From the NCBI RefSeq assembly GCF_013177315.1, contig NZ_CP053661.1, positions 3,038,001-3,102,000 of the forward strand: a stretch of DNA of 64,000 bases, given 5' to 3'. Below, one piece after another: positions 17,654-36,372 of this stretch (position 1 is the first letter of the stretch; each line of letters opens with the position of its first letter). Both the position numbers and the translations under genes were made by a program. Below the pieces are notes generated by a model, which saw nothing but the letters and a program-made list of their open reading frames with translations, searched no databases and was not told the DNA's origin. The DNA is from Thermoleptolyngbya sichuanensis A183. Lineage in GTDB: Bacteria; Cyanobacteriota; Cyanobacteriia; Elainellales; Elainellaceae.

Positions 17654-18739
17654 TTATTCTGAGCGCGATCGCCGGATGCGGTCAATTTCTCGCTGCAACT
17701 CTGCCACTTCGCGCCGCAGCCGCTCCACATCGGCCTCGCCCGTGGACGACGATTCACTACTGGGGGATGGCGGCTCTGCGTCCACTGTCGGCTCTCCAGC
17801 GCGGCGATAGTTGCCTGCGCGAATCTGCCGCAGTTCTTCCGATTCCGACCATTCTTTCAGAAAATGCACCCGCTCCACGGTGAACGGATGCGTCTGAAAA
17901 AATCCCTGCGATAGGTTGTTATACAGCAGAAACTTGTAGACCTGGTTGATGCCGTCTTGATCTAGATTCTGGTAGCGCTCTGACTGGCGCGAGAATTCTT
18001 CCAGGCTCAGCTCGTGGGCATAGCGGCTGCTGCCGCCTGCCAGCTTCATCATGTTTTGCAGCACGGGCTTTACGTCGTCCATTACCAGCAGCGCCGCCCG
18101 GTCGGCCGACAGTTCCGCCTTCCGCAGCCATTCATAAAAGGCCAGGATTAGCCCCGTACTGACGAGGCTGCTCAGCCCAAAGGTCATCTCTGCCAATCCC
18201 GATGCAGCGGTGATGACCCAGCTTGCCATCTGCGTCAGCGTCGTGTGTCCACATTTTAGATGTCCCAGTTCGTGAGCTAGGACGGCTTTTATCTCGGCCT
18301 CGTCGCTCAGGTCAAGCAGGGCCGTGCTTAGCACCACGCAGGGCCGCTCTTGCCCCAGCGCGTAGGCGTTTACCATCGGCGATTGGGAGACAAACAGCGT
18401 CGGCTCTGGCGCAATATCGAGCGATCGCAGGCATTCCCGAAACATCTGAAACAGCGTGGAATATTGCCGTGGCCCCACCTCGATGGCATTGCCCAACAAA
18501 AACACCTGCCGCGGCCGCTCATAAACGAATTCCACAAAGCGCCGTGCCACCAGGTCAAACCCCGGCACGCTGCGGAGCGTCTGCTCGGCCTGCTGATCGA
18601 GCGGGTGACGGAAGGCTTCGCTGGAGATTCCGGGATAGACGGGCATAGGGCGAGGTTGGGGAAGAAGGGGCTGATGAAGAGAGATTGTTTGCTGAACCTC
18701 CGCTACTCTAGCGGCTGGCCACTGCGTCTGGGGAAGCAT
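17654..18739 (-). CDS. M48 family zinc metallopeptidase
   Basis: The HExxH motif appears as HELGHLKCGH, about residues 156-165 from the chosen start. A third zinc ligand is expected in RKAELSADRAAL, as in M48 (Ste24/HtpX-like) proteases. Upstream, FVSQSPMVNAYALG matches the family's substrate-cleft strand. Only one hydrophobic stretch (about 170-200 after HExxH) could be membrane associated, so it belongs to the soluble or peripheral M48 group. The C-terminus is a charged coiled coil (ERLRREVAELQREIDRIR). ATG at 18739 with GAGAGG upstream is preferred. An in-frame TTG at 18784 would add 15 residues. It converges on tgt. Confidence 0.88.
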   Translation of the reverse strand: MLPQTQWPAARVAEVQQTISLHQPLLPQPRPMPVYPGISSEAFRHPLDQQAEQTLRSVPGFDLVARRFVEFVYERPRQVFLLGNAIEVGPRQYSTLFQMFRECLRSLDIAPEPTLFVSQSPMVNAYALGQERPCVVLSTALLDLSDEAEIKAVLAHELGHLKCGHTTLTQMASWVITAASGLAEMTFGLSSLVSTGLILAFYEWLRKAELSADRAALLVMDDVKPVLQNMMKLAGGSSRYAHELSLEEFSRQSERYQNLDQDGINQVYKFLLYNNLSQGFFQTHPFTVERVHFLKEWSESEELRQIRAGNYRRAGEPTVDAEPPSPSSESSSTGEADVERLRREVAELQREIDRIRRSRSE

Positions 18740-18861
18740 GAAGCCTCTCTTAAACTTTATGGTGGCTTCCTGGCTCAAGGCCAAGTTTTTTTGTTAAAAC
18801 TGGTGTTCAGTAGTCCAGCGGATTAGTATATTCGTATTAACCTCTCTGCTCCTGCCCCTTT

Positions 18862-21800
18862 GTGCACGTCAAGCGCGTAGAACTGTCTCACTTCAAATCC
18901 TTTGGTGGCACAACGCAGGTTCCGTTGCTGCCGGGGTTTACCGTGATTTCTGGCCCAAACGGATCGGGCAAGTCGAATATTCTGGATGCGCTGCTGTTTG
19001 CGCTGGGGTTGGCGGGTTCCAAAGGAATGCGGGCAGAGCGCCTGCCAGATTTGGTGAACCAGAGCGTGGCCAGTCGCGGCCGCAGCACGGTGGAAGCCAG
19101 CGTCACCGTTACCTTTGCGCTGGATGAAGAAGACATCGCGGCCTACCAGGGCGATGACGATCCTCTGCCCAGCGCTGATCTGGCCTTTGGTGAAGGCAAT
19201 GGACAGATAGATGCCGCCCCCCAGAACGGATATCTGAATGACAATCATGGCAATCACGGCAATCACGGGAGCGGCAGTCCTAGCAACGGCAGCGGCAAAA
19301 AGCCGGATGCCAGCCAGCTTGGTGTTGCCCCGGTGATGGTTCCTTTCAACGAATGGAGCGTGACGCGCAAGCTGCGGGTGACGCAGCAGGGAACCTACAC
19401 CTCGAACTATTACATCAACGGACAGCCCTGCACGCTGAACGAACTGCATGAGCAGCTTCACCGCTTTCGGATTTATCCCGAAGGCTATAACGTGGTGCTG
19501 CAAGGCGACGTCACCAGCATTATTTCCATGAATCCCCGTGAACGGCGGGAAATTATTGATGAATTGGCGGGCGTGGCGGCGTTTGACCGCAAGATTTCCC
19601 AAGCAAAGGACAAGCTGGATGCGGTGAAGGAGCGGGAAGAGAAGTTTCGCATTGTGGAGCGGGAGTTAATCGAGCAGCGCGATCGCCTCGCTCAGGATCG
19701 CCTCAAGGCAGAGAAATATAAGCGACTCAAAGCCGAGTTTCAGTCCAAAAGCCAGTGGGAAGTGGTGCTGAACTGGCAGAGTCAGCAAGACCAGGCGCAG
19801 AAGCTCCAGCAGCAGATCGAGGAGGGCGATCGCGCTCTGGCGGAAACTGCTACACAACTGACGGCGCTGGCGACCGAAATTCAGCAAATTACCGCTGATC
19901 TAGAGCGGCTGAATGCGCGGGTGAAGGCGCTGGGCGAAGACGAGCAGTTGGCGCTGCAATCCACCCTAGCGACGCACGAAGCCGAACTGCGCCAGCTCCA
20001 GCGGCAAGAGCAGGACCTCCTGACGGCGAACCGCGACACGATGGCGCAGATTGCCCAGGCGCAGCAGGCGCTTCAGGAGCAAATGCAGATGCTAGAACAG
20101 GCTTCTGCGGATCAGCAGCGCATCGAAACCCAGGAAATTGCTGCCCTCCAGGCGGCCCGCGATCGCGCTCAGCGGGCCCTGCAAGCTAGCCGGGAACAGT
20201 CCAGCGCGATCGCTGAAGCGTCGGAGGCCTGGGTGCAGGAGCAAGCCGCCCTGCGTCGCCAGATGGAGGAGTTGCTGAACCAAATTGAGCCGCAGCGCAC
20301 GGAGCAGGCGCGGCTGCAAGAGCGAGTGTCGCAGCTCCGCGCCAAGATTCAGGAACAGACGGAAGCGCTGGGGGCGATCGCCCAATCGCTGGCTGAAAAG
20401 CAGTCCGAGCAATCTACCGTTGAAGCGCAGCGGGCCGAGGCTGAAACCCAGGTGCAGCGACTCGCTCAAGCGCTTACCGAAGCCGAGCAAGACCTCCGGA
20501 CCCAGCAAGACACCCAGACCCGTCTGCTGAACGAGCAGCGCGACAAACAGCGCCAGCTTGACCGTCTGGAAGCCCAGACTCAGGCGATGCAGGAGGCCCA
20601 GGGCACCGGAGCCAGCCAGGTGATTTTGAGCGCAGGTATTGACGGGGTTCACGGGCTGGTGGCACAACTGGGGCGAGTCGATTCGCCCTATCAACTGGCG
20701 CTGGAAATTGCGGCGGGCGGCCGCCTGGGCAATCTGGTGGTGGAAGACGACCGGATCGCAGCGCGGTGCATCGACCTGCTGAAGCAGCGGCGGGCGGGTC
20801 GAGCCACCTTCCTGCCGATGAACAAAATCCGCGTGCCGCAGTTTACGGAAATCCCAAAGGGTAACCGACCAGACGGGTTTGTGGACTATGCGGTGAACCT
20901 GATTGACTGCGATCGCCGCTTTGAGGATGTGTTTGCCTATGTCTTTGGCAGCACGGTGGTCTTTCGCACGCTAGAACAGGCGCGACCGCACTTGGGCAAA
21001 TATCGCATTGTGACGCTGGACGGCGAACTGCTGGAAACCAGCGGCGCGATGACGGGCGGCAGCGTGTCCCAGCGGCAAGGCTCTCTGAGATTTGGCACAG
21101 TGCAGCCGGGAGAATCGGCCGAAGCGGCCACATTGCGCGATCGCCTCTCGGAAATCGACACCATTCTGCGGCGCTGTGAAAGGGCGATCGCCCAGGGCAC
21201 AGAAGCCGTCCGCACCCACACCCAGGCGCTCAACGAAGCCCGCCAGCAGCAGCGTGCAGTGCAACTCCAGGCAGACCAATTCCAGACCCAACTGGCAGCA
21301 CTGGTGACCCAAGAAGGGCAGCTTCGCACCCAGCTTTCGCAAAACCGCCAGGAGCTTGGCCCTGCCGAAGAGCGCCTGCAAACGTTGGAACGCGACCTGC
21401 CCGCCCAGGAAGCCGAACTCCAGCGCCAGCGACAAGTCCTGGCAGACCTGGAGCAATCCCAGACTCACAGCGAGTGGCAGCAGATTCAAGCCACTATTCG
21501 TCAGCAGGAGGCAGAACTGGGCGATCGCCAGCTTGCCCTGCGATCTGCCGAACAGCGGGTTCAAGACCTGGAAATTCAGCGGCAGCGCCTCCAGGAAAAA
21601 ATCGCCCAGCTAAATCAGCGGCTGCACGATCTCCGTACTCAGCAGACGACGCAGATGCAGCAGCGATCTGCGCTGGGGACTCAGCAGACCGCCCTCAGCC
21701 AGACCATCGCCCAGACTCGTGCGGCGCTGGATTCGCTGGAGGCCTCCCTCGCGTCGGAAAAACAGGAGCGCGATCGCACGGAACGCCTCTTGCGCGATCG

Positions 21801-22614
21801 CCAAACCGCTCAGCAACAGGCCGACTGGCAGCGCCAAAAACTCCAGGAAACCCAGCAGACCCGCCGCGAAAGCTTGGCCACGCTCCAGGCAGCGCTAGAA
21901 GCAAAGCGGGCGGAGTTACCAGACCCATTACCAGAGTTGCCCGATCCGCTGCCCGACCTGGGCGAATTGCAGCACGAACTGCGATCGCTCCAGCGCCGCA
22001 TCGAAAATATGGAACCTGTCAACATGCTGGCCCTGGAAGAATACGAGCGCACCCAGGAGCGTCTGGAAGACCTCAGCCAAAAGCTCGGCACGCTGGACGA
22101 AGAGCGCAGCGAGCTGCTCCTCCGCATCGAAAACTTCACCACCCTACGTCAGCGAGCCTTCAAGGAGGCTTTCGACGCGGTGAACGTAAACTTTCAGTCC
22201 ATCTTTGCCGAACTGTCCGACGGCGATGGCTATTTGCAACTCGACGACCCCAACGATCCCTTTGGCAGTGGGCTAAATCTGGTTGCTCATCCCAAGGGCA
22301 AGCCCGTCCGCCGCCTCGCCTCTATGTCTGGGGGCGAAAAATCCCTCACTGCCCTCAGCTTCATTTTTGCTCTCCAGCGCTATCGTCCCTCACCCTTCTA
22401 CGCTTTCGACGAAGTGGATATGTTCCTGGATGGCGCAAACGTGGAGCGTCTTTCCCGGATGATTAAGCACCAGGCCCAGCAGGCTCAGTTCATCGTTGTC
22501 AGCCTGCGCCGCCCAATGATCGAAGCCGCCCAGCGCACCATCGGCGTAACCCAGGCGCGGGGAGCCTATACGCAGGTGCTGGGCATCGACTTGCAGCAGA
22601 ACGTTTCGGGGTGA
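18862..22614 (+). CDS. smc: Chromosome segregation protein SMC
   Basis: SMC dimers condense and align replicated chromosomes with ScpA/ScpB. The protein has 1250 residues and a GTG start. The N-terminal head has Walker A GPNGSGKSN at 31-39. Long coiled coils (about 250-600 and 760-1040) flank a hinge (about 610-740, GVHGLVAQLG to GAMTGGS). The C-terminal head carries the signature SMSGGEKSLTALS and Walker B FYAFDEVDMFLDG. Residues about 97-160 form an extra, low-complexity insertion in the N-terminal head, including three NHG repeats encoded by a 9 bp tandem repeat at 19242-19268. No scp genes are adjacent. Confidence 0.96.
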   Translation: MHVKRVELSHFKSFGGTTQVPLLPGFTVISGPNGSGKSNILDALLFALGLAGSKGMRAERLPDLVNQSVASRGRSTVEASVTVTFALDEEDIAAYQGDDDPLPSADLAFGEGNGQIDAAPQNGYLNDNHGNHGNHGSGSPSNGSGKKPDASQLGVAPVMVPFNEWSVTRKLRVTQQGTYTSNYYINGQPCTLNELHEQLHRFRIYPEGYNVVLQGDVTSIISMNPRERREIIDELAGVAAFDRKISQAKDKLDAVKEREEKFRIVERELIEQRDRLAQDRLKAEKYKRLKAEFQSKSQWEVVLNWQSQQDQAQKLQQQIEEGDRALAETATQLTALATEIQQITADLERLNARVKALGEDEQLALQSTLATHEAELRQLQRQEQDLLTANRDTMAQIAQAQQALQEQMQMLEQASADQQRIETQEIAALQAARDRAQRALQASREQSSAIAEASEAWVQEQAALRRQMEELLNQIEPQRTEQARLQERVSQLRAKIQEQTEALGAIAQSLAEKQSEQSTVEAQRAEAETQVQRLAQALTEAEQDLRTQQDTQTRLLNEQRDKQRQLDRLEAQTQAMQEAQGTGASQVILSAGIDGVHGLVAQLGRVDSPYQLALEIAAGGRLGNLVVEDDRIAARCIDLLKQRRAGRATFLPMNKIRVPQFTEIPKGNRPDGFVDYAVNLIDCDRRFEDVFAYVFGSTVVFRTLEQARPHLGKYRIVTLDGELLETSGAMTGGSVSQRQGSLRFGTVQPGESAEAATLRDRLSEIDTILRRCERAIAQGTEAVRTHTQALNEARQQQRAVQLQADQFQTQLAALVTQEGQLRTQLSQNRQELGPAEERLQTLERDLPAQEAELQRQRQVLADLEQSQTHSEWQQIQATIRQQEAELGDRQLALRSAEQRVQDLEIQRQRLQEKIAQLNQRLHDLRTQQTTQMQQRSALGTQQTALSQTIAQTRAALDSLEASLASEKQERDRTERLLRDRQTAQQQADWQRQKLQETQQTRRESLATLQAALEAKRAELPDPLPELPDPLPDLGELQHELRSLQRRIENMEPVNMLALEEYERTQERLEDLSQKLGTLDEERSELLLRIENFTTLRQRAFKEAFDAVNVNFQSIFAELSDGDGYLQLDDPNDPFGSGLNLVAHPKGKPVRRLASMSGGEKSLTALSFIFALQRYRPSPFYAFDEVDMFLDGANVERLSRMIKHQAQQAQFIVVSLRRPMIEAAQRTIGVTQARGAYTQVLGIDLQQNVSG

Positions 22615-22631
22615 GGGAGGAGGGGAGGAGG

Positions 22632-22728
22632 GAAGAACGAAGAACGAAGAACGAAGAGAGAAGAATGAAGAGAGAAGGGCGAAGGGCGAAGAGGTTCCGT
22701 TTTTCGTTTTTCACTTTTCGTTTTTTCC
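22632..22728 (+). repeat. Purine/pyrimidine hairpin element after smc (copy 2)
   Basis: It starts about 18 bases after the smc stop with repeated GAAGAACGAA words. It passes through the core shared with the cobS copy (22688-22706) and ends in a pyrimidine arm and TTTTTTCC (22721-22728). It could fold into an imperfect hairpin followed by T's, which fits a terminator. Confidence 0.75.
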
Positions 22729-22891
22729 GTCTCTTGCCCCATTACCCCCAAGGGCGGCTTTCCGAACTCAAGACAGACTTACCAAACGTTCGAGTTTGGT
22801 TAAGATTGGCTTAGTATTGATATCTGACCGTATCTACTGTATTCATATTTCAATCGAACTATTTCAACCAGTTCGAGGTTAGGACTCGACA

Positions 22892-23851
22892 ATGACATCT
22901 GAACAAATCCGCCAACGCTCAGACCTCCTTGGAACGCAAATCATCACCCGCGACACCGGCAAGCGCCTGGGTGTCGTGAGCCAGCTTTGGGTGGATGTCG
23001 ATCGCCGCGAGGTGGTTGCCATCGGTTTGCGGGAAAGCATCCTATCGGGCGTGGTGTCTGGCACGCAGCAGATGATGTATCTTGCGAACATTCGCCAGAT
23101 CGGCGACGTGATTTTAGTCGATGACGACTCTGCGGTAGAGGATGAAGTTGACACAGAAGCATATAGCAGCCTGATCAACAGCGAAGTGATCACTGAGACG
23201 GGAGAACTGCTGGGCAAGGTGCGGGGCTTCCGGTTCAACGTCGAAAATGGTCAGCTTGAGTCTATTGTGATCGCCTCGATTGGGTTTCCCTTTATTCCCG
23301 ATCAGGTGGTTAGCACCTACGAACTGTCGATCGAAGAGGTGGTGAGCAGCGGCCCCGATCGCCTGATTGTGTTTGAGGGCGCGGAGCAAAAGATGTCGCA
23401 GCTTAGCGTGGGCTTTTTGGAGCGCATCGGCATTGGTCGTCCGCCGTGGGAGCGCGACGAAGAAGACTACATTATGCCGGTGTCTACGTCTAACCAGTTG
23501 CCGACGGGTGTGCGTACCCCTGCGCCTCAGCCGATGCGTGCGCCTGCCCGCGAATCGACCTGGGATGACGATACGTGGGAAGAACCCCGCCGCCCGATCC
23601 AGGAGCCGCTGCGTCAGCGCCAGCCAGAGCCGCTCTACCGCGATGAGCCGGAAGATAACTGGAACGATCCGCCCCGTCGCCAACAGTATGCAGAGGCTTA
23701 TGAAGATGCCGATGCCTATGAACCTCCGATGAAAGAAGAACTGGACGACGTGTGGGAGGATGACGACAACCCCCAGCCCTATCGCGCACCGCAGTTGAAT
23801 ATTCCCGAACGGCAAAAGGTCGTGGAATACGAGGAAGATGCGGATTATTAA
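22892..23851 (+). CDS. PRC-barrel domain protein
   Basis: The protein has 319 residues. Two PRC-barrel-like modules lie at about 10-80 (LLGTQIITRDTGKRLGVVSQLWVD, split) and 90-165 (SLINSEVITETGELLGKVRGFRF, split). A disordered, acidic and proline-rich tail follows from about 195 (repeated R/P/E and DED). PRC-barrel domains bind partners in RNA processing and photosynthetic complexes; here the partner is unknown. It follows smc after 277 bases that include the hairpin element, so it is probably a separate transcript. Confidence 0.85.
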   Translation: MTSEQIRQRSDLLGTQIITRDTGKRLGVVSQLWVDVDRREVVAIGLRESILSGVVSGTQQMMYLANIRQIGDVILVDDDSAVEDEVDTEAYSSLINSEVITETGELLGKVRGFRFNVENGQLESIVIASIGFPFIPDQVVSTYELSIEEVVSSGPDRLIVFEGAEQKMSQLSVGFLERIGIGRPPWERDEEDYIMPVSTSNQLPTGVRTPAPQPMRAPARESTWDDDTWEEPRRPIQEPLRQRQPEPLYRDEPEDNWNDPPRRQQYAEAYEDADAYEPPMKEELDDVWEDDDNPQPYRAPQLNIPERQKVVEYEEDADY

Positions 23852-24188
23852 GGTAAGTCACTCAGGGTGAGTCGCCATAGCAGGGTTCAGTGGCTTAGGA
23901 TTTGTTCCACGACGCTTATATTCGAGGATTGAGCCTGATTGCCTGGCACATGTCCCGAAAGCCCAGAAACTGTGTTGTCTTGGAATCGAAACCCATAACC
24001 CCTAAATTGGAGCCAGAGGGCTTGGTTAAGGGGGGGCTTTTGGGTCACCGTCCCCTTAGGAGAAATCAAGGGCTTCCAGAGATGTGTCAGGCAATCAGGG
24101 ATTAAGCTTCAAATTCAAAGGTTATTCCGTTTGAAACTCTTGGGTCGGGCTGCTGTGGACGTTGGGGTAAATGGTGATGGCTCCATAG
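23852..24188. other. Intergenic region holding element copy 1
   Basis: This gap between the convergent PRC-barrel and GAF-kinase genes is mostly the inverted-repeat element at 23934-24099. The 60-67 residue frames here are inside the repeat and are not genes. Confidence 0.6.
23934..24099 (+). repeat. ~162 bp inverted-repeat element, copy 1
   Basis: The ends are CCTGATTGCCTGGCACA at the left and, read inward on the other strand, CCTGATTGCCTGACACA at the right. The interior matches copies 2 and 3 (GCCCAGAAA, GTTGTCTTG, GAGGGCTTGGT, CTTTTGGG, AGAAATCA). Flanks GATTGAG and GATTAAG may be a decayed target duplication. It has no coding capacity, so it is a MITE-like element. It is more diverged than the other two copies. 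Confidence 0.85.
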
Positions 24189-26366
24189 CTACTGTTCTGC
24201 TTGGTTCAGTGCGCCTGAGGGTTTGAGATTCTCCTGCATGACCTTGTGCTGATGAATCGGAATTCTTATGTGAAATTCTGTACCCGTATCAGGCTGCGAG
24301 ATGCATTGCAGCGTGCCATGATGACGTTCGCAGACAATTTGCTGACTAATTGAGAGTCCTAGCCCTGTACCTTTTCCGATAGGCTTGGTGGTGAAAAAGG
24401 GATCGAATAGTTTGGGTTGTAGTTTTTCAGGAACCCCAGGGCCGTTGTCGGCGATGCAAATGCAAACGTACTGGGGGCGATCGCCCTTAAGGGGATGGTG
24501 TTCGTGCAGTTGATCGCATTGATCGCACGGTCTGGGATCGCACAGTTTGGTTCGGATGGTAATGGTGGGTTGGCGCAGACTATCGACGTCACTACTCATT
24601 CCTTCTTGAATTGCCTTTTCTCTTGCTCCAATCTGCTCCTCTAGGGCATCAATGGCATTGCTGAGCAAATTCATAAATACTTGATTGAGCTGGCTAGGAT
24701 AGCACTCAACTAGCGGCAACTGTCCGTACTCTTTAATCAACTGAATATTGTTCGCAGGGTTAGAAACCGACTTGGGTTTCAAGCGATATTGCAGAATGAG
24801 GAGTGTGCTTTCTAGTCCTTCGTGTAAGTCCACTACTTTCATCTCCGCTTCATCCAGCCGTGAGAAATTCCGAAGGGATAACACAATACTGCGAATTCGC
24901 TCAGCCCCAACTTGCATAGAAGCTAAAATTCGAGGGAAGTCTTCTATCAGAAAATTCAGATCAATCTCTTCAGCGCGATCGCCCACTGCGTTAACAGGTT
25001 CTGGATAATGCTTTTGGTAAAGTTTAACTAACTCCATGAGGTCGTGGGCATAGCGGCGAGCGTAGCTTATATTGCCGTGAATGAAGTTAACAGGATTATT
25101 AATTTCATGGGCAACCCCAGCTACAAGCTGCCCCAAGCTTGACATTTTTTCACTTTGAATCAACTGGGTTTGTGCTTTTTTGAGATGATCTAATGCAGCC
25201 GCAGTTTCCACAGATTGCTGTTGAGCTTGAGCCAGTAGTTCTGCCTGCTTTAGCGCGACACTAAGCTGGGCTGCAATCTGCCTAGCAAATTCAATTTCTT
25301 CCGCTTCCCAGAAGCGCGGTTCAGCACATTGATGAACACACAATAAGCCCCACAGATAACTTCCTTGCAAAAGCGGTAAAACCAAATTGGCACGGATTTG
25401 AAAGCGTGACAGTACGTCAATATGACACGCTTGAAGACCTGCTGAATAAATATCAGCAACTGCCTGAAATTGTCCCTGATGGTAAGCATCAGAGTAGCGA
25501 TCGCCAAAACAGTGATCCTGAACCTTTTCCGCTAAGACTGATGCATAGCCCTGCCCAACACTCTCTGATACAAACTCTCCATCATTCCAGTTAGAATCAG
25601 GCGCAAATCGAAAAATTGCAACTCGATCAGCCCCAAGCAACTGTCTAGATTCAGTTGCAGCCGTTCTAAAAATAGTTGCCAAATCCATTGGCTCTCGAAT
25701 TCGAGAAACCACCTTAAATAAGGCTTTCTGCTGCTCTGACTGAAAGCGTACTTTGTCCAGTAAACTGGCTTGCTGAAGTGCGACACCAAGATGTGTAGAA
25801 ACCTGCTTGGCAAACTCGATTTCGTCAGATGTCCAGGTGCGAGAACCTGAGCATTGATGAACGCAAAGTAGACCCCAAAGTGTTTCTTCTTTTATTATTG
25901 GTACAACCAAATTGGCGCAAATTTGAAAGTGACTTAAAATCTCAATATGACACTCTTTCAGACCTGCAGATCGAACATCACTAACGGCTTGTATTCGTCC
26001 TTTGTGATAATCAATTGCGTATCGCTCACCAAAGCAGTGATCGTGAACCTTTTCTAATAAGACTGATTTAAACTCAGGGGCAACATCTTCTGCTAAAAAC
26101 TCGCCATCATTCCAACCAGAATTAGGTTCAAAGCAAAAAAGAGCGACACGATCTGCACTTAGAAGGCGGCGAACCTCAATTGCGGCCGTCTTAAAAATTG
26201 TGTTTAGATCTAAGGATTCGCGAATTTTTGTAATTACTCGAAACAGTGCTTTCTGTTGTTCCGCCTTAGAAATATCTGCCCAATTCAATAGATTTTGCCG
26301 GAGTTGCTCAAAAGCAGCATCGCTACTACAGTAGGCTCGCAGTTGTTCTAGTTGTTGTTGGTTCAT
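24189..26366 (-). CDS. Histidine kinase with two cyanobacteriochrome-like GAF domains
   Basis: The protein has 725 residues and no membrane segment. GAF1 covers about 50-200 and GAF2 about 228-378. Each carries DHCF (C111, C286) and a Cys-His pair in AGLxxCHI (C139-H140, C314-H315). These are the two bilin-linked cysteines of DXCF-type cyanobacteriochromes. Further matches to that family are GEFxxE, CFGxRY, FQIxANLVxP and LWGLLCVHQC. A coiled coil leads to SLGQLVAGVAHEINNPVNF with phospho-accepting H420. The ATPase domain has N, G1 (DNGPGVP), F and G2 (GKGTGLGLSIS) boxes. Between its strands, just before the G1 box, sits an unusual Cys/His-rich insert of about 25 residues (DNA 24460-24545). 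It is predicted to be a blue-range photosensor kinase. No response regulator is adjacent. Confidence 0.88.
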   Translation of the reverse strand: MNQQQLEQLRAYCSSDAAFEQLRQNLLNWADISKAEQQKALFRVITKIRESLDLNTIFKTAAIEVRRLLSADRVALFCFEPNSGWNDGEFLAEDVAPEFKSVLLEKVHDHCFGERYAIDYHKGRIQAVSDVRSAGLKECHIEILSHFQICANLVVPIIKEETLWGLLCVHQCSGSRTWTSDEIEFAKQVSTHLGVALQQASLLDKVRFQSEQQKALFKVVSRIREPMDLATIFRTAATESRQLLGADRVAIFRFAPDSNWNDGEFVSESVGQGYASVLAEKVQDHCFGDRYSDAYHQGQFQAVADIYSAGLQACHIDVLSRFQIRANLVLPLLQGSYLWGLLCVHQCAEPRFWEAEEIEFARQIAAQLSVALKQAELLAQAQQQSVETAAALDHLKKAQTQLIQSEKMSSLGQLVAGVAHEINNPVNFIHGNISYARRYAHDLMELVKLYQKHYPEPVNAVGDRAEEIDLNFLIEDFPRILASMQVGAERIRSIVLSLRNFSRLDEAEMKVVDLHEGLESTLLILQYRLKPKSVSNPANNIQLIKEYGQLPLVECYPSQLNQVFMNLLSNAIDALEEQIGAREKAIQEGMSSDVDSLRQPTITIRTKLCDPRPCDQCDQLHEHHPLKGDRPQYVCICIADNGPGVPEKLQPKLFDPFFTTKPIGKGTGLGLSISQQIVCERHHGTLQCISQPDTGTEFHIRIPIHQHKVMQENLKPSGALNQAEQ

Positions 26367-26599
26367 AGAATAGCGTGTTTGAGAAAAAATTGCCGGTTTG
26401 CATACCCTACCTCTAGAAGCCCCTGATTGCTTATTGAAACTGCCTCAAATGGTCTTTTCTATGAGTTTATCAGCCGCAGATTAGATCTATGAGTCAGGGC
26501 TTTTGAGTCAGCGCTTTTAGGACTCATGCAAGATAAACAGGGGCAATAAGCATAGAAACCAATACAAGCTGATGAGGAGATTTCGAGAAGGTAGCTGTG

Positions 26600-26761
26600 C
26601 TGGTTGCCTGACACAAGTCCCGAAAGCCCAGAAAATTCGTTGTCTTGGGATCGAAGCCCATAGCTCCTGAGTTGGAGCCGGAGGGCTTGGTCAGAGGAGC
26701 TTTTGGGCCAGCGTCCCCTACGAGAAATCAGGGGTTTCCAGAGATGTGTCAGGCAGTCAGG
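26600..26761 (+). repeat. ~162 bp inverted-repeat element, copy 2, with 9 bp target duplication
   Basis: The left end is CTGGTTGCCTGACACA and the right end is TGTGTCAGGCAGTCAGG. The element is flanked by perfect direct repeats GTAGCTGTG at 26591-26599 and 26762-26770, which shows it arrived by transposition. The interior is about 95 percent identical by eye to copy 3. It has no transposase, so it must have been moved in trans. Confidence 0.92.
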
Positions 26762-27371
26762 GTAGCTGTGAGTCTAACGGAATCGACTTTACAGAATAGA
26801 ACAGTGCATTAGAGGAACCAACAGAGAAACAATTGTTAGGAACTATAGCTGATCGATAAGATATTAGTCATTATTCAACATTTCATCACCCTCCACGTCA
26901 TCATCTGTTACAGCAAGTAGACGGACACTAGATTCACTGCCGGATAGGCAAGACTAGGCGTAGGCTCAGTCGATAGACCTTTAGGTTAACCAGGACTCAG
27001 GGTTCGCTATCTCATGGGAGTCCTGGCAACGCTTTGCAGTATTCTCCATAGAGGCTTGTCAGGTTTCATGCTGTGTTTGGCTGAACACGGCTTATTATTT
27101 CTTCAGGTTTCCCAACAATGATTGCAGAATTAACATAAAAGTTTAAGCGGTTTAGAGGTTGACTCTACGATTTTATGCTGAACTTTTCTTTACAAAACTT
27201 ATCTTTAAGTCAACCATTTTAATATGCATCCAAGAAATAGTTTTATGTTAGGCATGTTAAGTACTTGGCAATCGCTTTCAGCACGCAGGCTCGTGGCTAG
27301 TCTTGCGGTTACCAAATCGCTGGGGATTTCTCAGCAGAGCAAACGCATACTAACGCGAACTTAACGAAGAC

Positions 27372-27461
27372 AGGACTTACGCAGTTGGACAATTTCTCGC
27401 GGGCGCAGCCCGCGAGAAATTGTCCAAAACCCAAAGAGCTTATCGCAAGTGCGTAAGTCCT
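27372..27461 (-). repeat. AGGACTTACGCA palindromic element, copy B
   Basis: This is a 90 bp element with ends AGGACTTACGCA and TGCGTAAGTCCT. The core is a perfect 18 bp stem (GGACAATTTCTCGCGGGC) with a three-base loop. It is nearly identical to copy D in the opposite orientation. Confidence 0.9.
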
Positions 27462-27592
27462 GGAACGAAATGAGGGGTTAAACGGTTAGCGCCTGCAAAT
27501 CGCCTCTAATTTTTTGCAATAAGATGTCCTAAAGTCGCCTTTATCGCGAAAGTCTTGGCGTATACGTTTGTCTTGGATTTCTCAGAGTTCGG

Positions 27593-28711
27593 CTAGTCTA
27601 CATCTATATCTGCACCATCTGCATCCCAGTTCTTGAGACGCTGTTTCTCAACTCGCCGTGAGGGCTGGCGATACTTCTTGCGCTCTAGCTTTGGCTCGAT
27701 TTCGGTCTGGCCGTCTTGGCGACTTTTTTGTTTGGTGGTGGCTTCGGTATGGCGGGTGCGTTCCTGGGCCTCTTGACGGGCGATCGCCTCTTCTAGAAAA
27801 ATCCGATAGTGTTCATAGCGCTCCCAGTCGCCCCGAACGGCGCAGTCTGGCTCTTCCCGATGCAGGCAGTTGCTAAACTGGCAGGCGGCTTGCGCCATTC
27901 GCTGGCGGGCTTCTGGGAAGTAGTGGGCCAGCTCCCCCGGAGTGCAGTCTAGATCGGGCTGATTGAACCCAGGACTATCGGCCAGCAGCCCGCCCGCTGG
28001 CAACTCAAACAGTTCGACGTGGCGCGTGGTGTGGCGGCCCCGCTGGAGTTTGCCGGAGACTTCCCCCACACGCAGATTGACCGCTGGAATCAGCGCGTTT
28101 AGCAGGCTGGATTTGCCGACGCCAGATGGGCCAGAGACGACGGTGATTTGTTTTGCCAGGTCAGGGGCAAGTTTGTCTAGCCCAATATTTTCGCGCACGC
28201 TAATCATCAGCGGCAAATAGCCCCACTGTCGCAGGCGATCGCCCCACGCCACCAGTTCTACCTCCGTCAGCAGGTCGCATTTATTCAAACACAGGCACAC
28301 CGATAGCCCTGTGGATTCGGCCTTGACCAAAAAATGGCTGAGTTGGAAGGGATCGAGTGCGGGTTCTGCCAGGGCAAACACCAGCAAAATCTGATCGGCA
28401 TTGGCAATGGGCGGACGATCCAGTTCGGAGCGACGAGGAAACACTTGGGCGATCGCCCCTCGCTGCCCGGCCCAATCGGGTTCTTCAACTTCGACGCGAT
28501 CGCCCACCCAAACCTGCTGCCCGATTTTTCGCAGGCGCGATCGCCGGGTACATAGCAGCATATCCCCGGTGTTTGGCGGATAGCAGCCTGGGTCCAGCCG
28601 CACAAAGTAGTAATTAGCCTGCACCGCCAGCACTGTACCCGTGATCCGTTGCGACCCCACCTGCTGAACCGTGGCCTCAACGAGCGACTGGGGCTGGCAA
28701 TCTGCACCCAT
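27593..28711 (-). CDS. rsgA: Ribosome small-subunit-dependent GTPase A
   Basis: RsgA (YjeQ/EngC) is a late 30S assembly GTPase. The start ATG at 28711 gives 372 residues beginning MGADCQPQSL. The open frame extends upstream but would overlap the TusA-like gene. An OB-fold (GTVLAVQANYYFVRL) is followed by a circularly permuted GTPase with G4 NKCD before G1 GPSGVGKSSLLNAL and then G3 DSPGF. The zinc site is CQFSNCLHREEPDC. The C-terminal tail is basic and then acidic (KNWDADGADIDVD). It lies 16 bases after the TusA-like gene and is probably in one transcript with it and dnaJ. Confidence 0.95.
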   Translation of the reverse strand: MGADCQPQSLVEATVQQVGSQRITGTVLAVQANYYFVRLDPGCYPPNTGDMLLCTRRSRLRKIGQQVWVGDRVEVEEPDWAGQRGAIAQVFPRRSELDRPPIANADQILLVFALAEPALDPFQLSHFLVKAESTGLSVCLCLNKCDLLTEVELVAWGDRLRQWGYLPLMISVRENIGLDKLAPDLAKQITVVSGPSGVGKSSLLNALIPAVNLRVGEVSGKLQRGRHTTRHVELFELPAGGLLADSPGFNQPDLDCTPGELAHYFPEARQRMAQAACQFSNCLHREEPDCAVRGDWERYEHYRIFLEEAIARQEAQERTRHTEATTKQKSRQDGQTEIEPKLERKKYRQPSRRVEKQRLKNWDADGADIDVD

Positions 28712-28727
28712 AACTCTGCACCTATAA

Positions 28728-28982
28728 CTAGGGACGGCGAATACTAAGGGCAAAATAAGCGCCGTCTCCGCTTTGTCGCTCCTGCACTTGCTCGATCGGG
28801 TATCCTTCCATTCGCAAGCTATCGGGCACCTGCTCCATCGGCTCTCCTGGATCAAGCCACACTTCTAGGAGCGACCCAGCAGGCATTTTTTCTAGACGCA
28901 GCTTGGTTCGCACAAAATTTAGCGGACAGGGCGTGCCGCGCAGGTCAAGCTGGATATCTGGGACTGGGGAAGATTCCGTCAT
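28728..28982 (-). CDS. TusA/SirA-family sulfurtransferase-like protein
   Basis: The 84-residue protein has the family hallmark LDLRGTPCPLNFVRTKLRLEKM (split at 13-34), in which C19 of the CP motif is the expected persulfide carrier. A further match is GSLLEVWLDPGEP. TusA-like proteins relay sulfur for thio-modification of tRNA or for cofactors; the role of cyanobacterial members is not well defined. It lies between dnaJ (9 bases upstream) and rsgA (16 bases downstream), all leftward. Confidence 0.88.
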   Translation of the reverse strand: MTESSPVPDIQLDLRGTPCPLNFVRTKLRLEKMPAGSLLEVWLDPGEPMEQVPDSLRMEGYPIEQVQERQSGDGAYFALSIRRP

Positions 28983-28991
28983 GCATCCTGC

Positions 28992-30122
28992 TCAAGACTT
29001 GTGAAACAGATTGTCCAGGAAGCCCATGCCGCCCTTGCCGATGCGATCGCCCCGCAGCTTGGCAAGCTCCTCCAGCAGCTTCCGTTCCTCTGCCGAAACG
29101 CGAGTGGGAATATCAACCTGAACCGTAATCAGATGATCGCCCCGGCTAGTGGGGTTTCCCAAACGAGGCACGCCGCGATTCTCAAGCGTAATCACCGTTC
29201 CGGGCTGGGTTCCGGGCGGAACAATGGTTTCCACGGGCCCATCGACCGTATTTACCTCTAACTTCGAGCCAAGAATCGCTTGCAGGTAGCTAATCTTCAG
29301 GTTCGACAAAATGTTAATGCCGTCCCGCTGGAATTCCGCGTCGTCGTTGACAAACAGAAAAACGTAAAGATCGCCCGGTGGGCCACCCCGCATTCCTGCA
29401 TCTCCCTCAGAAGAAATGCGGAGCCGCGTCCCATTGTCCACGCCAGCGGGAATCGTAATTTTGAGCTTTTTGGCTTCCTGTTTCTGTCCGCTGCCGCCAC
29501 ACACGTCGCACTTTTCTTCGATCATCTGCCCACTGCCGTTGCAGGTGGGGCAGGTAGACACCTGAGTAAAGCTGCCAAAGGGAGTTCGGGTGGCCCGCCG
29601 CACCTGCCCTGCGCCGCCGCAGGTTGTGCAGGTTTTGGGGCGTGTCCCCGGCTTTGCGCCCGATCCGCTACAGTTGGTGCAGGTTTCTAGGTGACTGATG
29701 CGAATTTCCTTTTCGCCGCCAAAGATGGCCTCACGAAAGTCTAGCTTCAGGTCAAGGCGCAGGTCTTCGCCACGGGTGGGTCCACTGCGACGACGGGCCT
29801 GCTGACCTGGAGCCGCACCCGCAAAGTTTCCAAAGAAGCTCTCGAATAGATCTGCAAAGCCGCCTAAATCGGTAAAGTCTTGATAGCCTGCGCCAGCCGC
29901 AGAGCCAACGCCTGCCTCACCAAAGCGATCGTAGCGGGCGCGAGTTTCTGGCTCTGAAAGCACTTCGTAGGCGCGGTTAATTTCTTTGAAACGTTCTTCA
30001 GCGCCTTCCTCTTTGTTGACATCGGGGTGATACTTGCGGGCAAGCCGTCGATAGGCTTGCTTTAGCTCCTCTTTGTCGGCATCGCGAGAGACACCCAGAA
30101 TGTCGTAGTAGTCACGGGCCAT
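28992..30122 (-). CDS. dnaJ: Chaperone protein DnaJ (Hsp40)
   Basis: DnaJ stimulates the ATPase of DnaK and delivers unfolded clients. From the ATG at 30122 the protein has 376 residues ([20 protein letters not shown]). The J domain contains HPD in [14 protein letters not shown]-rich linker follows, then a zinc region with four CxxCxGxG repeats ([32 protein letters not shown]), then the C-terminal substrate domains. Thirty-two upstream in-frame codons are not part of the family and were excluded. It lies 302 bases after the dnaK remnant tail in the grpE-dnaK-dnaJ order. Confidence 0.96.
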
Positions 30123-30424
30123 AGAACGCTGCTGGGGGTTGAGTAATTTGGCGTGAATAGAGTCGGGGAAACAGGTCAGCGCCGTACAAACAGGCGATTC
30201 GGCCACCCAATTCCCCACATCCTACATCGTAACGAATTGTTTGCGATCGCACCCTGTCATTGAAGTGGGCATTACCGAACCAATCCCCCCATGTAGCAGC
30301 GGCTAGCCTTTGAAGCCTCTGCCAACCCGGAGAAATTGGCAAACCAGAGACTTTCGGGAGTCAACGCCCCTGAGACGTGCAGCGCAACCAATGCCCCTCA
30401 AGCGGGAATACGCGATTCGCTGTC
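30123..30424. other. Gap between dnaK tail and dnaJ
   Basis: About 300 bases contain a HIP1 site and no gene-like frame other than the non-conserved upstream extension of dnaJ. No clear terminator or promoter was recognised. Confidence 0.4.
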
Positions 30425-30797
30425 CTAATCCACGGCCTCGTAGTCAGCCGTCACGGTTTCGTCTGTCTCGAAGCTGAAGTCGTCTCCGTTGACTGCTTCT
30501 GTAAGTTCCGGTTCTCCACTGCCGTTGGGCCAGGCAACCGTGGGATCGTCATAGCCGTCTGGGTCACTGCCATAGCCTGCATAGTTGCCGTTCGCATCTG
30601 ATCCATGATGCATAGCTTGTTGATACATCGCCGAACCAATTGCAAACAGGGCATGTTGGAGCGCATCCAAGCGAGCCTTCATGGTGTCTACATCCAGCGT
30701 CCGATCGGCGACCGCCGCTCGCAGTTCTGCCACTTTTTCAGCAGCCTCTGCTTTATACGCTTCGGGAATCAAGTCGCCATTCTCGCGAAGCGTCGTC
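30425..30797 (-). pseudogene. dnaK: Out-of-frame C-terminal part of DnaK
   Basis: Directly after the stop of the dnaK frame, the next frame continues the family sequence without a break: [19 protein letters not shown], then AAEKVAELRAAVADRTLDV, then a disordered acidic tail. This is the C-terminal helical lid and tail of Hsp70. One extra T in AATTATTGAGACG (near 30797-30801) turns TAT-GAG into TAT-TGA. Removing it would give one protein of about 665 residues, the normal DnaK length. As it stands this piece would need its own start (a TTG at 30772 exists) or is not made. Confidence 0.85.
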
Positions 30798-32423
30798 TCA
30801 ATAATTGCTGAACAGGATATCGGCCTGGTTGCGATATTCCACTAGCAGACGACGGTTCTGATCTTCTTCGGCATAGAGGTCTGCCTCCATCCGCATCCGT
30901 TCCACTTCAGACTCGCTGAGTCCGCCTGTGTTGGTGATACGGATCGTTTGCGCCCGACCTGTGCCCTTGTCGCGGGCGCTGACTTGCAGAATACCGTCTG
31001 CATCGATTTCAAAGGACACCTCGATCTGCGGTACGCCACGTGGGGCAGGCGGAATCCCCGTCAGTTGGAACTTCCCAAGGCTCTTGTTGTCCTTCACCAT
31101 CGCCCGTTCCCCTTGCAGAACATGGATCTCGACCGAGGTCTGTCCATCGGTTGCTGTGGAGAAGGTCTGGGTTTTGCTAGTGGGAACTGTGGTGTTGCGC
31201 TCGATGATGCGAGTAAACACGCCGCCGAGTGTTTCAATCCCCAGCGAGAGTGGGGTTACGTCCAGCAGCAGCAGGTCTTTCACCTCACCACCCAAAACGC
31301 CTGCTTGAATTGCCGCACCCAGTGCAACCGCCTCATCGGGGTTGACAGAGCGATCGGGAGCTTTGCCGTTGAAATACTTCTTGATGGCTTCTTGAACTGC
31401 TGGAATCCGAGTAGAGCCGCCTACCAGCAAAATGCGGTCTAAATCATCCGCGCTCAGTCCGCAATCCTTCAGCGCCTGCTCGACAGGTTCAAGCGTGCTT
31501 TCGACCAGATCATTCACCAGTTCTTCAAACTTGGCGCGGGTCAGCTCCATTTCCAGGTGCTTTGGCCCAGTTTCGTCGGCTGTAATGAACGGTAGGTTGA
31601 TGGTCGTCGTGAGCATACTCGAAAGCTCGATCTTGGCTTTCTCCGCAGCTTCGCGCAAGCGTTGTAGCGCCATCTTGTCGCTAGAGAGGTCGATCCCTTC
31701 TTGCTGCTGGAAGCTAGACATGAGCCACTGAACCAGCACATTGTCAAAGTCATCGCCGCCCAGGTGGTTGTTGCCAGAGGTGGATTTCACCTCAAACACA
31801 CCGTCACCGAGTTGCAGCACGGACACATCAAACGTCCCGCCGCCCAGGTCAAACACCAGCACGCTTTGTTCCTGATCCTGTTTGTCCAATCCATAGGATA
31901 GAGCCGCAGCAGTTGGCTCGTTGATAATCCGCAGCACTTCTAGCCCTGCAATAGTGCCTGCATCTTTGGTGGCCTGGCGCTGGGCATCTGTAAAGTAGGC
32001 CGGTACGGTGATAACCGCCTGGGTGACTGGTTCTCCTAAATAGTTTTCAGCGTCCTGCTTCAGCTTTTGCAGGATCATGGCGGAAATTTCCTGGGGTGTG
32101 TAGGAACGTCCGCGAATTTGCACGTCTACCGTGTCATCTTTCCCCCGGACGCAGGTGTAGGGGACTCGGCTTTGCTCGTCGGTTGTGTCGTCCCAGCGTC
32201 GCCCGATAAACCGTTTAATGCTGAAAATGGTGTTTTCGGCATTGGTCACAGCCTGACGCTTGGCGAGCTGCCCTATGAGCCGCTCACCGTTCTTGCCAAA
32301 ACCAACAATGCTAGGAGTGGTGCGTCCTCCCTCTGAGCTGGAAATGACAACGGGTTGACCGCCCTCCAGGACAGCAACACAGCTATTCGTTGTGCCCAGG
32401 TCGATGCCAATGACTTTTCCCAT
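30798..32423 (-). CDS. dnaK: Molecular chaperone DnaK (Hsp70), truncated by a frameshift
   Basis: The frame encodes 541 residues. It contains the complete ATPase domain ([67 protein letters not shown]) and the substrate-binding beta domain ([18 protein letters not shown]). It stops just after the first lid helix ([10 protein letters not shown]). The rest of the lid is in another frame at 30425-30797. The N-terminal sequence ([25 protein letters not shown]) looks nearer the cyanobacterial DnaK1 group than DnaK2, which is a tentative reading. Genomes of this phylum carry several dnaK copies, so loss of one may be tolerated. Either a real mutation or a base-call error could explain the break. 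Confidence 0.92.
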
Positions 32424-32793
32424 AATTTAGCTAGTAGCGGCTATCAGATTTCAAGTGAATGAGTCGGAGACCAGAAGCTGATTCAACTCTTAGCAAGTAT
32501 TCCGCAATTGTTCGGGAATTTAATCAGTCGCGCTTAAAAATATTTCTAGAGGCTCCGCAAAAAACAGGAGATTTGCCGAATGGTGGGCTTTTCAGGCTGA
32601 GTTTTTGGAGCGAGTCTACCTGGATTTTGCTAAAGACCTCTTGGCTTAGTCAGGTTTAATTGAGTCGCTCAGGACGATTGTTGAAAAGCGCTCACCTCTC
32701 ACACAGTTCGTCTACTACACAATGGTCAGCTATCCACATCAGTTATACACAGTGGTCAGCTAGAAGATTCTTGAGCGGAGTCTTGGTCTGGTT
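32424..32793. other. Intergenic region between grpE and dnaK
   Basis: The dnaK leader contains a direct repeat TACACA(A/G)TGGTCAGCTA at 32716-32732 and 32746-32762. No CIRCE-type GTTAGCACTC inverted repeat was found. No gene was recognised. Confidence 0.5.
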
Positions 32794-33489
32794 TTATCCC
32801 TCAGATGACGTGTCGGCGCTGCTGCTGTCGTCGGAAGGCTCGACAGCGGCGGCAACCTTGACCATTGCATGGCGCAAGACGCGATCGCCCAGCATATAGC
32901 CCCGCACTAGTTCTTCGATAACCGTGCCCTCAGCGTATTCTTCGGACGGCTCCCGCATGACGGCTTCGTGCAGGTTTGGGTCAAACTCTTTGCCCTCAGA
33001 GCGCATTGGAGAAACGCCGATGCGCTTGAGCCGTTCTACCAGATCTTTGTAGACTCCCTGATAGCTTTTGTGAATCGCCATGCCTTCGTCGCCCTGGGGC
33101 TTGATCTGCGATCGCGCTCGTTCAAAGTTATCGACGACAGGCAGCAGTTCTTCAACGGTTTTGCACTTAATTTGCTGCTCTAGGTCTTCCTTCTCCTTTT
33201 GGGTGCGCTTGCGGAAGTTCTCAAAATCCGCCGCAATCCGCTTGCAGTGATTTGTCCACTCTTCAAGCTGCTGTTCTAGCGTCGCCACTTTTTGATTTAG
33301 CTCATCGACGAGCGCCGAAGAATCTCCGCTGGGAACCTCCGCGACGACCTCCACCTGAGGCTCAGTCGATGCTTCGACCGTCGAGGCAGACGGATCGACT
33401 GCTTCGGTATTCATGACTTCGCTTTCCACGCCATTGCTTTCAGCGGACACGTCATCACCCTCCATCGGTTGCTTCTCTTCTTCGATCAT
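32794..33489 (-). CDS. grpE: Nucleotide exchange factor GrpE
   Basis: GrpE releases ADP from DnaK. The 231-residue protein starts with an acidic, disordered N-terminus (about 1-60). A long coiled coil follows (about 60-130, [19 protein letters not shown] then [17 protein letters not shown]). The C-terminal beta domain carries the GrpE signature ([49 protein letters not shown], split). ATG at 33489. It is upstream of dnaK and dnaJ in the same direction, with 370 bases to dnaK. Confidence 0.96.
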
Positions 33490-34263: not shown

Positions 34264-36267
34264 ATGGCTAACTCTTCATCCCAACGTCGTGCCCTTGTTG
34301 TCCAGCATAATTTTTCGCCCTTCAGCAACAAGCTCATCCAGGCGGGCTACGTCAACAACGACCAAATGCAGCAAGCCCTGGTGGAAAGCCGCAAAACAGG
34401 GCGACCGCTGACGGATGTGTTGGAGATGATTACAGGTCAGCAGTTGCCGCCTGACCTGCTGCGCCAATATAAGAAGCAACAGCTTTTTGAACTTAAAATT
34501 CTCTACGGAGTTGAATCCCTCGATCCGGAGATCAACGAAATTTCGACTGCCCAGGTTGGGCAACTCATCGATAGTCTCATTCCCGTCGATCTGTGCCGTC
34601 GCTATCGCCTTGTGCCTCTGTCGCGCACCGAAAGCGAACCGCCCGCAGTGCTGATCGCAATGGTCGATCCCGATGATCTGGCTGCACAAGACGACCTCAA
34701 CCGCATTCTGCGTCCGCAGGGTCTGGGGCTAATGCGGATGGTGATCACGGTTGAAGACTATCAGCGGATCATCTCCCAATATCTAGATGAGCAGGTCGAA
34801 CGCCAGAAGCAGCTCGAATTTCAGTCCAAGGTGGATGTGAAGGCAGATCTTGAAGGGCTGGATTACCTCGATCTGGAGGAACCACCCGACGATATCGAAG
34901 CCAACTTGGATGCTGCCCTTCAGGATGCCGACGCGGCCCCTGTGATCGCCTTGGTCAACAAAATTCTGGTGAAGGCGCTTCAGGAAGGGGTTTCCGATAT
35001 CCACATCGAGCCGCAGGAAGAACATCTCCGCATTCGCTTTCGCAAAGACGGCGTGCTGCGGGAGGGACTGGAGCCGCTGCCCAAGAAAATCGTTCCGGCG
35101 GTCACCGCTCGCTTCAAAATCATTGCTGATCTAGACATTGCCGAACGCCGGATGCCCCAGGACGGGCGCATTCGCCGGATTTTTGACGGGCGCAAGGTGG
35201 ACTTCCGGGTGAACACGTTGCCCAGTCGCTACGGCGAAAAGGTGGTGCTGCGGATTCTCGACAACTCCGCTACTCAGCTGGGGCTGGACAAACTGATCAC
35301 CGACCCAGAAACGCTGCAAATTGTGCAGGAAATGGTATCGCGTCCCTTTGGTCTGATCCTGGTGACGGGGCCGACTGGATCGGGTAAAACGACAACGCTC
35401 TATTCTGCCCTGGCGGAGCGCAATAGTCCCGGCGTGAACATCAGCACTGCCGAAGACCCGATTGAATACTCCCTACCGGGGATTACCCAGGTGCAGGTGA
35501 TCCGCGAAAAAGGGATGGACTTTGCCTCGATTCTGCGAGCCTTTCTGCGGCAAGACCCGGACGTGATTCTGGTGGGTGAGACTCGGGATAAGGAGACGGC
35601 GAAGACGGCGATCGAGGCGGCACTGACGGGACACCTGGTGCTGACAACGCTGCACACGAATGACGCTGCGAGTGCGATCGCCCGTCTCGAAGAAATGGGC
35701 GTAGAGTCCTTTATGGTGTCTAGTTCGCTGATTGGCGTGCTGGCTCAGCGCCTCATGCGCCGCGTCTGCCCCGACTGCCGTATTCCCTACAGCCCTAGCC
35801 CCGAAGAACTGGCCCGCTTTGGCCTGTCGGCTTCTCGCGAAGCAGAAGTGACCTTCTATAAGGCCAACGAACTGTCACCTGACGAAATTCAGTCCGCCCG
35901 CGCCCAAAACACCCTCTGCCCCACCTGCAAGGGCAGTGGCTACAAAGGACGCTGCGGGGTATACGAAGTCATGCGTGTAACGGAGCAAATCCAGACTCTC
36001 ATTACTGAAGGCGCACCCACCGAGCGAATCAAGGAAGTGGCAGTAGACGAGGGCATGAAGACCTTGCTGGCCTATAGCCTAAACCTGGTGCGCGAGGGCA
36101 GCACAACGCTTGAAGAGGTAGAGCGCGTCACCTTTACCGATACGGGATTGGAGGCGGAACTCAAAGCCAAGCGCAAGAGTTCGCTGACTTGCCGCAACTG
36201 TGCTGCTGAGCTACGCCCCGAATGGCTAGATTGTCCCTATTGCACTACCCCCCGCTTCCAGGATTAG
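34264..36267 (+). CDS. pilB: Type IV pilus assembly ATPase PilB
   Basis: PilB drives pilus extension, which powers motility and DNA uptake in cyanobacteria. The protein has 667 residues. An N-terminal MshEN/GspE-N region covers about 20-175. The GspE ATPase core has Walker A GPTGSGKTTT at 369-378, the Asp box (AEDPIEYSLPGITQVQV), Walker B (DPDVILVGETRD) and a His box (HLVLTTLHTNDA). The zinc motif of the GspE family is CPDC...CPTCKGSGYKGRCGVYE. A second C-terminal zinc ribbon (CRNCAAELRPEWLDCPYC) is typical of cyanobacterial PilB. It heads the pilB-pilT-pilC cluster. Confidence 0.97.
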   Translation: MANSSSQRRALVVQHNFSPFSNKLIQAGYVNNDQMQQALVESRKTGRPLTDVLEMITGQQLPPDLLRQYKKQQLFELKILYGVESLDPEINEISTAQVGQLIDSLIPVDLCRRYRLVPLSRTESEPPAVLIAMVDPDDLAAQDDLNRILRPQGLGLMRMVITVEDYQRIISQYLDEQVERQKQLEFQSKVDVKADLEGLDYLDLEEPPDDIEANLDAALQDADAAPVIALVNKILVKALQEGVSDIHIEPQEEHLRIRFRKDGVLREGLEPLPKKIVPAVTARFKIIADLDIAERRMPQDGRIRRIFDGRKVDFRVNTLPSRYGEKVVLRILDNSATQLGLDKLITDPETLQIVQEMVSRPFGLILVTGPTGSGKTTTLYSALAERNSPGVNISTAEDPIEYSLPGITQVQVIREKGMDFASILRAFLRQDPDVILVGETRDKETAKTAIEAALTGHLVLTTLHTNDAASAIARLEEMGVESFMVSSSLIGVLAQRLMRRVCPDCRIPYSPSPEELARFGLSASREAEVTFYKANELSPDEIQSARAQNTLCPTCKGSGYKGRCGVYEVMRVTEQIQTLITEGAPTERIKEVAVDEGMKTLLAYSLNLVREGSTTLEEVERVTFTDTGLEAELKAKRKSSLTCRNCAAELRPEWLDCPYCTTPRFQD

Positions 36268-36372
36268 CGCCGCTGTTTGCCCTAAGTGCTACTTGCCCTA
36301 AGCGCTAGCTGTTCCCAACTTGTCTTACTAAGTACAACTTAAGTACAACCCTGCATAGAAGGAGCCACCCAC

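Follow-up and report, generated by a model that had tools for sequence, protein, structure and literature searches.

Gene, domain layout and surroundings of the kinase

The window, meaning the whole 64,000-nucleotide stretch of DNA that was analysed, contained an open reading frame at 24189-26366 on the minus strand, which starts with ATG and encodes 725 amino acids. Pfam analysis of the protein revealed GAF in two stretches (5.8e-45) together with HisKA and HATPase_c, all above the cut-offs, which gave the order GAF-GAF-HisKA-HATPase_c; the only Pfam label for the sensor region was the generic GAF. The first domain, GAF1, covered about residues 37-208 (25743..26258) and the second, GAF2, about residues 212-383 (25218..25733), as delimited by Pfam, the PDB sequence search, the alignment and the modelled fold; here and below, all parts of the gene lie on the minus strand. 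The two domains were 59% identical. The kinase core (about residues 398-706; 24249..25175) was placed by Pfam and the alignment and comprised the phospho-acceptor H420 and the N, G1, F and G2 boxes. H420 and the key residues of the four boxes were invariant across 25 aligned sequences, and with the HisKA phospho-acceptor histidine and all four boxes the protein is, as judged by its sequence, a histidine kinase. In the ATPase domain, a loop rich in cysteine (CDPRPCDQC, residues about 608-631) was considered as a metal-binding site and rejected. It was absent from the relatives compared and weakly modelled, with residues 615-627 under pLDDT 50, and was therefore taken as a variable loop.

On the same strand, grpE, an hsp70 gene, dnaJ, a tusA-family gene and rsgA lay upstream of the kinase gene, which was separated from rsgA by 1.2 kb; a contig of the same genus (L132) had kept this gene order. 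No response regulator was found among the flanking genes examined (PRC-barrel, SMC, RsgA, TusA-family, DnaJ, Hsp70 and GrpE); response-regulator genes lay farther off in the window, at 13103-13753 and 1703-2764. No known RNA was detected at gathering scores within 18000-33000. A pilB-pilT-pilC-like cluster (Pfam T2SSE/T2SSF) was present at 34264-39164, 8 kb from the kinase, and a link of this cluster to phototaxis is speculation.

The gene was flanked by one fresh copy of a MITE with terminal inverted repeats (161 bp; 26600-26760, plus strand) and one older copy at 85% (23935-24098). Another 161-bp copy was found at 49203-49363 on the minus strand. With 40 of 60 candidates scored, near-full-length copies at 99-100% identity numbered at least 21 in the genome, and older copies were present at 72-91%. 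The 9-bp target-site duplications were exact in five of the six copies examined, and the copy upstream of the kinase had one extra base. The MITE family is recently active. Its ends were shared by a 1.3-kb insertion sequence with two copies (L178:639-1953 and L179:2249-3563), which is likely the parent of the MITE and encodes a DDE transposase of 403 amino acids; the closest NCBIfam model of this transposase was IS4-type, at 115.8 bits and below the cut-off of 152. A second palindromic element, whose ends read AGGACTTACGCA/TGCGTAAGTCCT and which contains a long inner hairpin, occupied 27370-27470 in the 1.2-kb gap upstream of the kinase.

Cyanobacteriochrome features of GAF1 and GAF2

Motif analysis and the alignment revealed a DHCF motif at residues 109-112 of GAF1 (26031..26042), with C111 as the second cysteine, and at residues 284-287 of GAF2 (25506..25517), with C286 in the same role. 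The canonical chromophore cysteine was followed by histidine in both domains, as C139-H140 (25947..25952) and C314-H315 (25422..25427), and the spacing from the second to the first cysteine was 28 residues in each. The sequence-only reading had named exactly these residues, and all of them were recovered at the same coordinates in the 725-residue frame. Both GAF1 and GAF2 carry the canonical Cys-His and the second cysteine of an Asp-Xaa-Cys-Phe motif.

In the PDB sequence search, the best solved bilin GAF was 6oap (3.7e-40 for GAF1 and 5.7e-45 for GAF2), and TePixJ (3vv4) was matched at 4e-27 and 9.7e-33, respectively. An AlphaFold model built from 25 sequences had a mean pLDDT of 80.4 and a pTM of 0.38, so that it was relied on for single domains and not for the domain arrangement. 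The modelled GAF1 was superposed on the blue form of TePixJ (4glq) with a VIA-align Z of 24.9 (1.4 Å over 147 residues), and the modelled GAF2 gave Z 23.9 to 6oap and Z 25.4 to another cyanobacteriochrome, 6xhh. Among the best 50 rows, several for each domain were solved cyanobacteriochrome-type GAFs, at Z 22.1-25.7 to the predicted model. As modelled, both domains have the cyanobacteriochrome GAF fold. Together with the tree described below, the motifs, the sequence search and the fold bore out the earlier proposal of tandem DXCF-type cyanobacteriochrome GAFs in a histidine kinase. Two other bilin-type assignments were rejected. The Pfam scan of the protein showed no PHY domain at E 0.001, as a phytochrome would require, and the extended red/green (XRG) type was discarded since the window GAFs read KV[HQ]DHCF, with neither the WXDXXL motif nor the short insertion before the Asp.

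A DHCF lineage with a three-residue insertion

The relatives were gathered with the window protein as the query, so the frequencies in the lineage are biased and are given among the matches listed. The alignment contained 139 full-length GAF domains and four references. A total of 105 rows, those with the canonical cysteine or a CF motif and the references, were used for the tree, other GAFs being left out as not bilin-type; this tree came from a quick search with SH-aLRT values and no bootstrap. Both window GAFs fell within one 60-row clade (SH-aLRT 98, among the matches listed), which included the identical pairs L048/L118 and L025/L116 and excluded TePixJ, the red/green GAFs, RcaE (8k9o), the 6oap GAF and 6mgh. 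A three-residue insertion before the β2 strand was present in all 60 clade rows and in none of the 44 outside rows among the matches listed. By alignment and model, it corresponded to S83-G84-W85 of GAF1 (26112..26120), in the loop between the modelled strands 73-79 and 87-95, and to S258-N259-W260 of GAF2 (25587..25595). Both cysteines were kept in 53 of the 60 clade rows, and the other seven missed one or both (again among the matches listed), which suggests that bilin binding has probably been lost repeatedly in the lineage. The lineage may deserve its own name.

TePixJ, the sole blue/green reference in the quick tree, joined L014, another protein of the same genome (SH-aLRT 93), and by the GAF tree the window GAFs would lie outside the TePixJ-type blue/green subgroup. 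Among the 20 of 31 GAF places of the genome that were aligned, DPCF GAFs were found at L142 (=L020), L144 (=L014), L145 (=L019) and L149, the last with Cys-Tyr, and a DRCF GAF with Cys-Leu was found at L157. The protein that contains the L144 GAF also has a chemotaxis signalling domain.

Elsewhere in the lineage, either a single GAF preceded a kinase of this type, or the GAF came after a PHY-containing region in a longer kinase. The latter arrangement, with the DHCF-lineage GAF following a phytochrome-type region, was seen in L106, L112, L122 and L129, kinases of about 890-1115 residues; PHY scored 36-51 bits in the four that were scanned, each time above the Pfam cut-off of 27, and by their sequences these proteins would act as dual sensors for red/far-red and blue. 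A DUF72 gene lay directly downstream of the single-GAF DHCF/DRCF kinases in seven of the eight genomes whose locus reaches at least 1.2 kb downstream (L108, L109, L110, L113, L118, L124 and L125) and was absent in L119. It was directly downstream in one of the four tandem loci with at least 1.2 kb downstream (L103) and in none of L106, L112, L116 and L129, and the only DUF72 gene of the window genome lies elsewhere (L140). A functional link between DUF72 and the kinase is possible; common descent may suffice.

Predicted colour of the photoproduct

Two aromatic residues bear on the colour. By alignment, the Phe of the β2 strand, at the trapped-twist position, and the Phe of helix 4 were present in both domains, as F90 (26097..26099) and F147 (25926..25928) in GAF1 and as F265 (25572..25574) and F322 (25401..25403) in GAF2. 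The corresponding residues of TePixJ were Val and Leu. Among the matches listed, both Phe occurred in 53 of the 60 clade rows and in none of the ten outside rows whose motif reads CF, one of which is TePixJ; the pair was also seen in 18 of 27 red/green-type rows and is hence not specific to teal. In PMC5240096, these trapped-twist Phe are tied to the photocycles of teal-DXCF proteins, which are grouped there with the red/green lineage. Because of this tie, the predicted colour was moved from blue/green to probably blue/teal; since the window GAFs form a clade apart from the red/green lineage, carrying the rule over is an extrapolation. The photoproduct is predicted to be teal-absorbing more likely than green-absorbing, with teal given roughly even weight, green a smaller but substantial share and any other colour the rest.

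The sequence-only reading had called the protein a probable two-chromophore blue/green sensor. The tandem dual-Cys part of that call stood, whereas blue/green was no longer the best prediction, given the Phe pair and the position outside the TePixJ branch. There is still a real though minority chance that both GAFs follow the classical blue/green photocycle of the TePixJ type, which would change the colour and nothing else of the receptor. The motifs and their spacing are the same as those of TePixJ, and typical DXCF domains, according to PMC11284453, carry PVB and photoconvert from blue to green and back; this is opposed by the two trapped-twist Phe in the window GAFs, where TePixJ has V and L, and by the clustering of TePixJ, the sole blue/green reference, with L014 (SH-aLRT 93) and not with the window GAFs.

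Tandem relatives and differences between the two GAFs

At least five relatives (L101-L105) shared the domain order and were of similar length, their open frames spanning 707-749 residues and that of the window kinase 751, and DHCF and CH were aligned in all 12 GAFs of the six tandem proteins. In a family-level search of 36 genomes, six, including its own, had matches of at least 60% identity over both GAFs, and two further genomes had matches of 51-54% over both GAFs in longer proteins. L106 and L107 also matched over both GAFs, yet they are not DHCF tandems: L106 has DECF and DHCF, and L107 has DHCF and a red/green-type domain. No close plasmid-borne relative was found, all 1256 matched records being under 60% identity, and no description of a tandem DHCF kinase was found by title or abstract opening in the open-licence literature.

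In the comparison with the same-genus copy L101, dN/dS was about 0.18 for GAF1, 0.06 for GAF2 and 0.08 for the kinase, and the codons of the window kinase are under purifying selection. GAF1 of the window has Cys where GAF2 and GAF1 of L101 have Arg (QIC instead of QIR). Because of its higher dN/dS and this substitution, one GAF may be weaker than the other. It is conceivable, but unlikely, that the two GAFs differ in function, so that GAF2 acts as the photosensor and GAF1 is poorly loaded with bilin, holds it unisomerised (a blue/orange photocycle) or is mainly structural. Besides the dN/dS and the Cys in FQIC, the existence of single-GAF relatives with the same kinase speaks for such a division. 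Against this, none of the six aligned tandem proteins has lost either cysteine or either Phe from GAF1, which speaks for chromophore binding having been preserved in this domain.

A 27-row tree paired each of the two window GAFs with its L101 counterpart, whereas GAF1 and GAF2 of L103 came out as sisters (95/94; 81% identical). The AU tests, which are weak, gave p 0.15 for the GAF1s as one clade, p 0.022 for the GAF2s and p 0.032 for all twelve, so that monophyly of the GAF2 domains was weakly rejected and that of the GAF1 domains was not. The evidence is modest and gives a hint of repeated duplication or gene conversion. With a probability somewhat short of even, the window GAFs belong to an unnamed DXCF lineage, recognisable by the insertion, the two trapped-twist Phe and a motif of the DHCFG type, that acquired blue/teal sensing separately from the red/green lineage; its tandems would recur or be gene-converted, which would yield two near-redundant blue sensors within a kinase.

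Proposed mechanism and bilin supply

The protein is very probably a histidine kinase that is regulated by light and carries two bilins on each chain, a degree of confidence that does not extend to colour. The analysis established the domain architecture, the cysteines of both GAFs, the lineage, the conservation, the predicted fold and the presence of genes for making bilin; from there, we infer chromophore binding, isomerisation, colour and the direction of the kinase response for the window kinase. The proposed chemistry rests, by analogy, on reports for DXCF domains in PMC11284453, which describes the chemistry of the second cysteine and PVB. Each GAF would bind phycocyanobilin through the cysteine of the Cys-His pair (C139 and C314), and the bilin would probably be converted to phycoviolobilin within the domain. 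The DHCF cysteine (C111 and C286) would form an adduct at C10 of the bilin in darkness and so create a blue-absorbing state; upon illumination, the 15,16 double bond would flip (15Z/15E) and the second thioether would be released. The Phe of β2 and helix 4 may keep ring D twisted, which would make a teal-absorbing photoproduct likelier than a green one. The modelled helices 180-224, from GAF1 to GAF2, and 355-452, from GAF2 to the histidine domain, could relay this change to H420, where autophosphorylation would be altered. With two similar sensors in series, the response could be sharpened or scaled.

Pfam revealed one heme oxygenase in the genome, and a cropped stretch of 203 residues from L131 had no heme oxygenase match in NCBIfam, so the heme oxygenase call is a Pfam assignment. 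The single ferredoxin-dependent bilin reductase was named PcyA by NCBIfam (335 bits against a cut-off of 206), and no second bilin reductase was found in the family search of the genome. Phycocyanobilin, to which heme oxygenase and PcyA provide the route, is therefore the likely bilin. The idea that the two domains are ordinary non-photosensory GAFs with cysteines by chance, as the generic annotation of GAF alone would allow, is scarcely credible and was rejected on sequence, fold and conservation: a solved bilin GAF was matched at 3.7e-40 and 5.7e-45, the exact motif spacing occurs twice, the motifs are conserved in orthologs, and the genome has bilin synthesis genes.

Comparison with known systems

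The window kinase is a further example of an already known kind of photoreceptor. Being compact and having two blue-sensing domains that are probably alike, it allows asking what a second similar sensor adds, and its GAFs are a test case for whether the Phe pair sets teal or green outside the red/green lineage. For annotation, it illustrates that the label "GAF domain histidine kinase" can conceal a photoreceptor.

The best PDB match for both GAFs was a dual sensor histidine kinase (PPHK; 6oap/6oaq/6ob8), at 43-46% identity; it likewise has a bilin GAF in a histidine kinase. Its GAF has DQYF and hence no second cysteine, no insertion and one of the two Phe, unlike the window GAFs. The GAF of TePixJ (blue/green DXCF; 4glq, 4fof and 3vv4) shares both cysteines, the 28-residue spacing and the fold with the window GAFs at 36-38% identity. 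However, it lies on another branch and has neither the three-residue insertion nor the two trapped-twist Phe, both of which are found in the window GAFs, and TePixJ is named a methyl-accepting chemotaxis protein whereas the window protein is a kinase. The teal-DXCF proteins (for example NpR1597g1), likened here by their description in PMC5240096, combine DXCF and trapped-twist Phe as the window GAFs do. They are grouped there with the red/green lineage, whereas the window GAFs form their own clade and have no red/green-type insertion before the Asp. The single-GAF DHCF/DRCF kinases (L108-L111, L113, L118, L119, L124 and L125), from genomes of the same family, have the same GAF lineage and kinase type at 59-66% identity over the matched part and differ from the window kinase in having one GAF and open frames of 518-588 residues.
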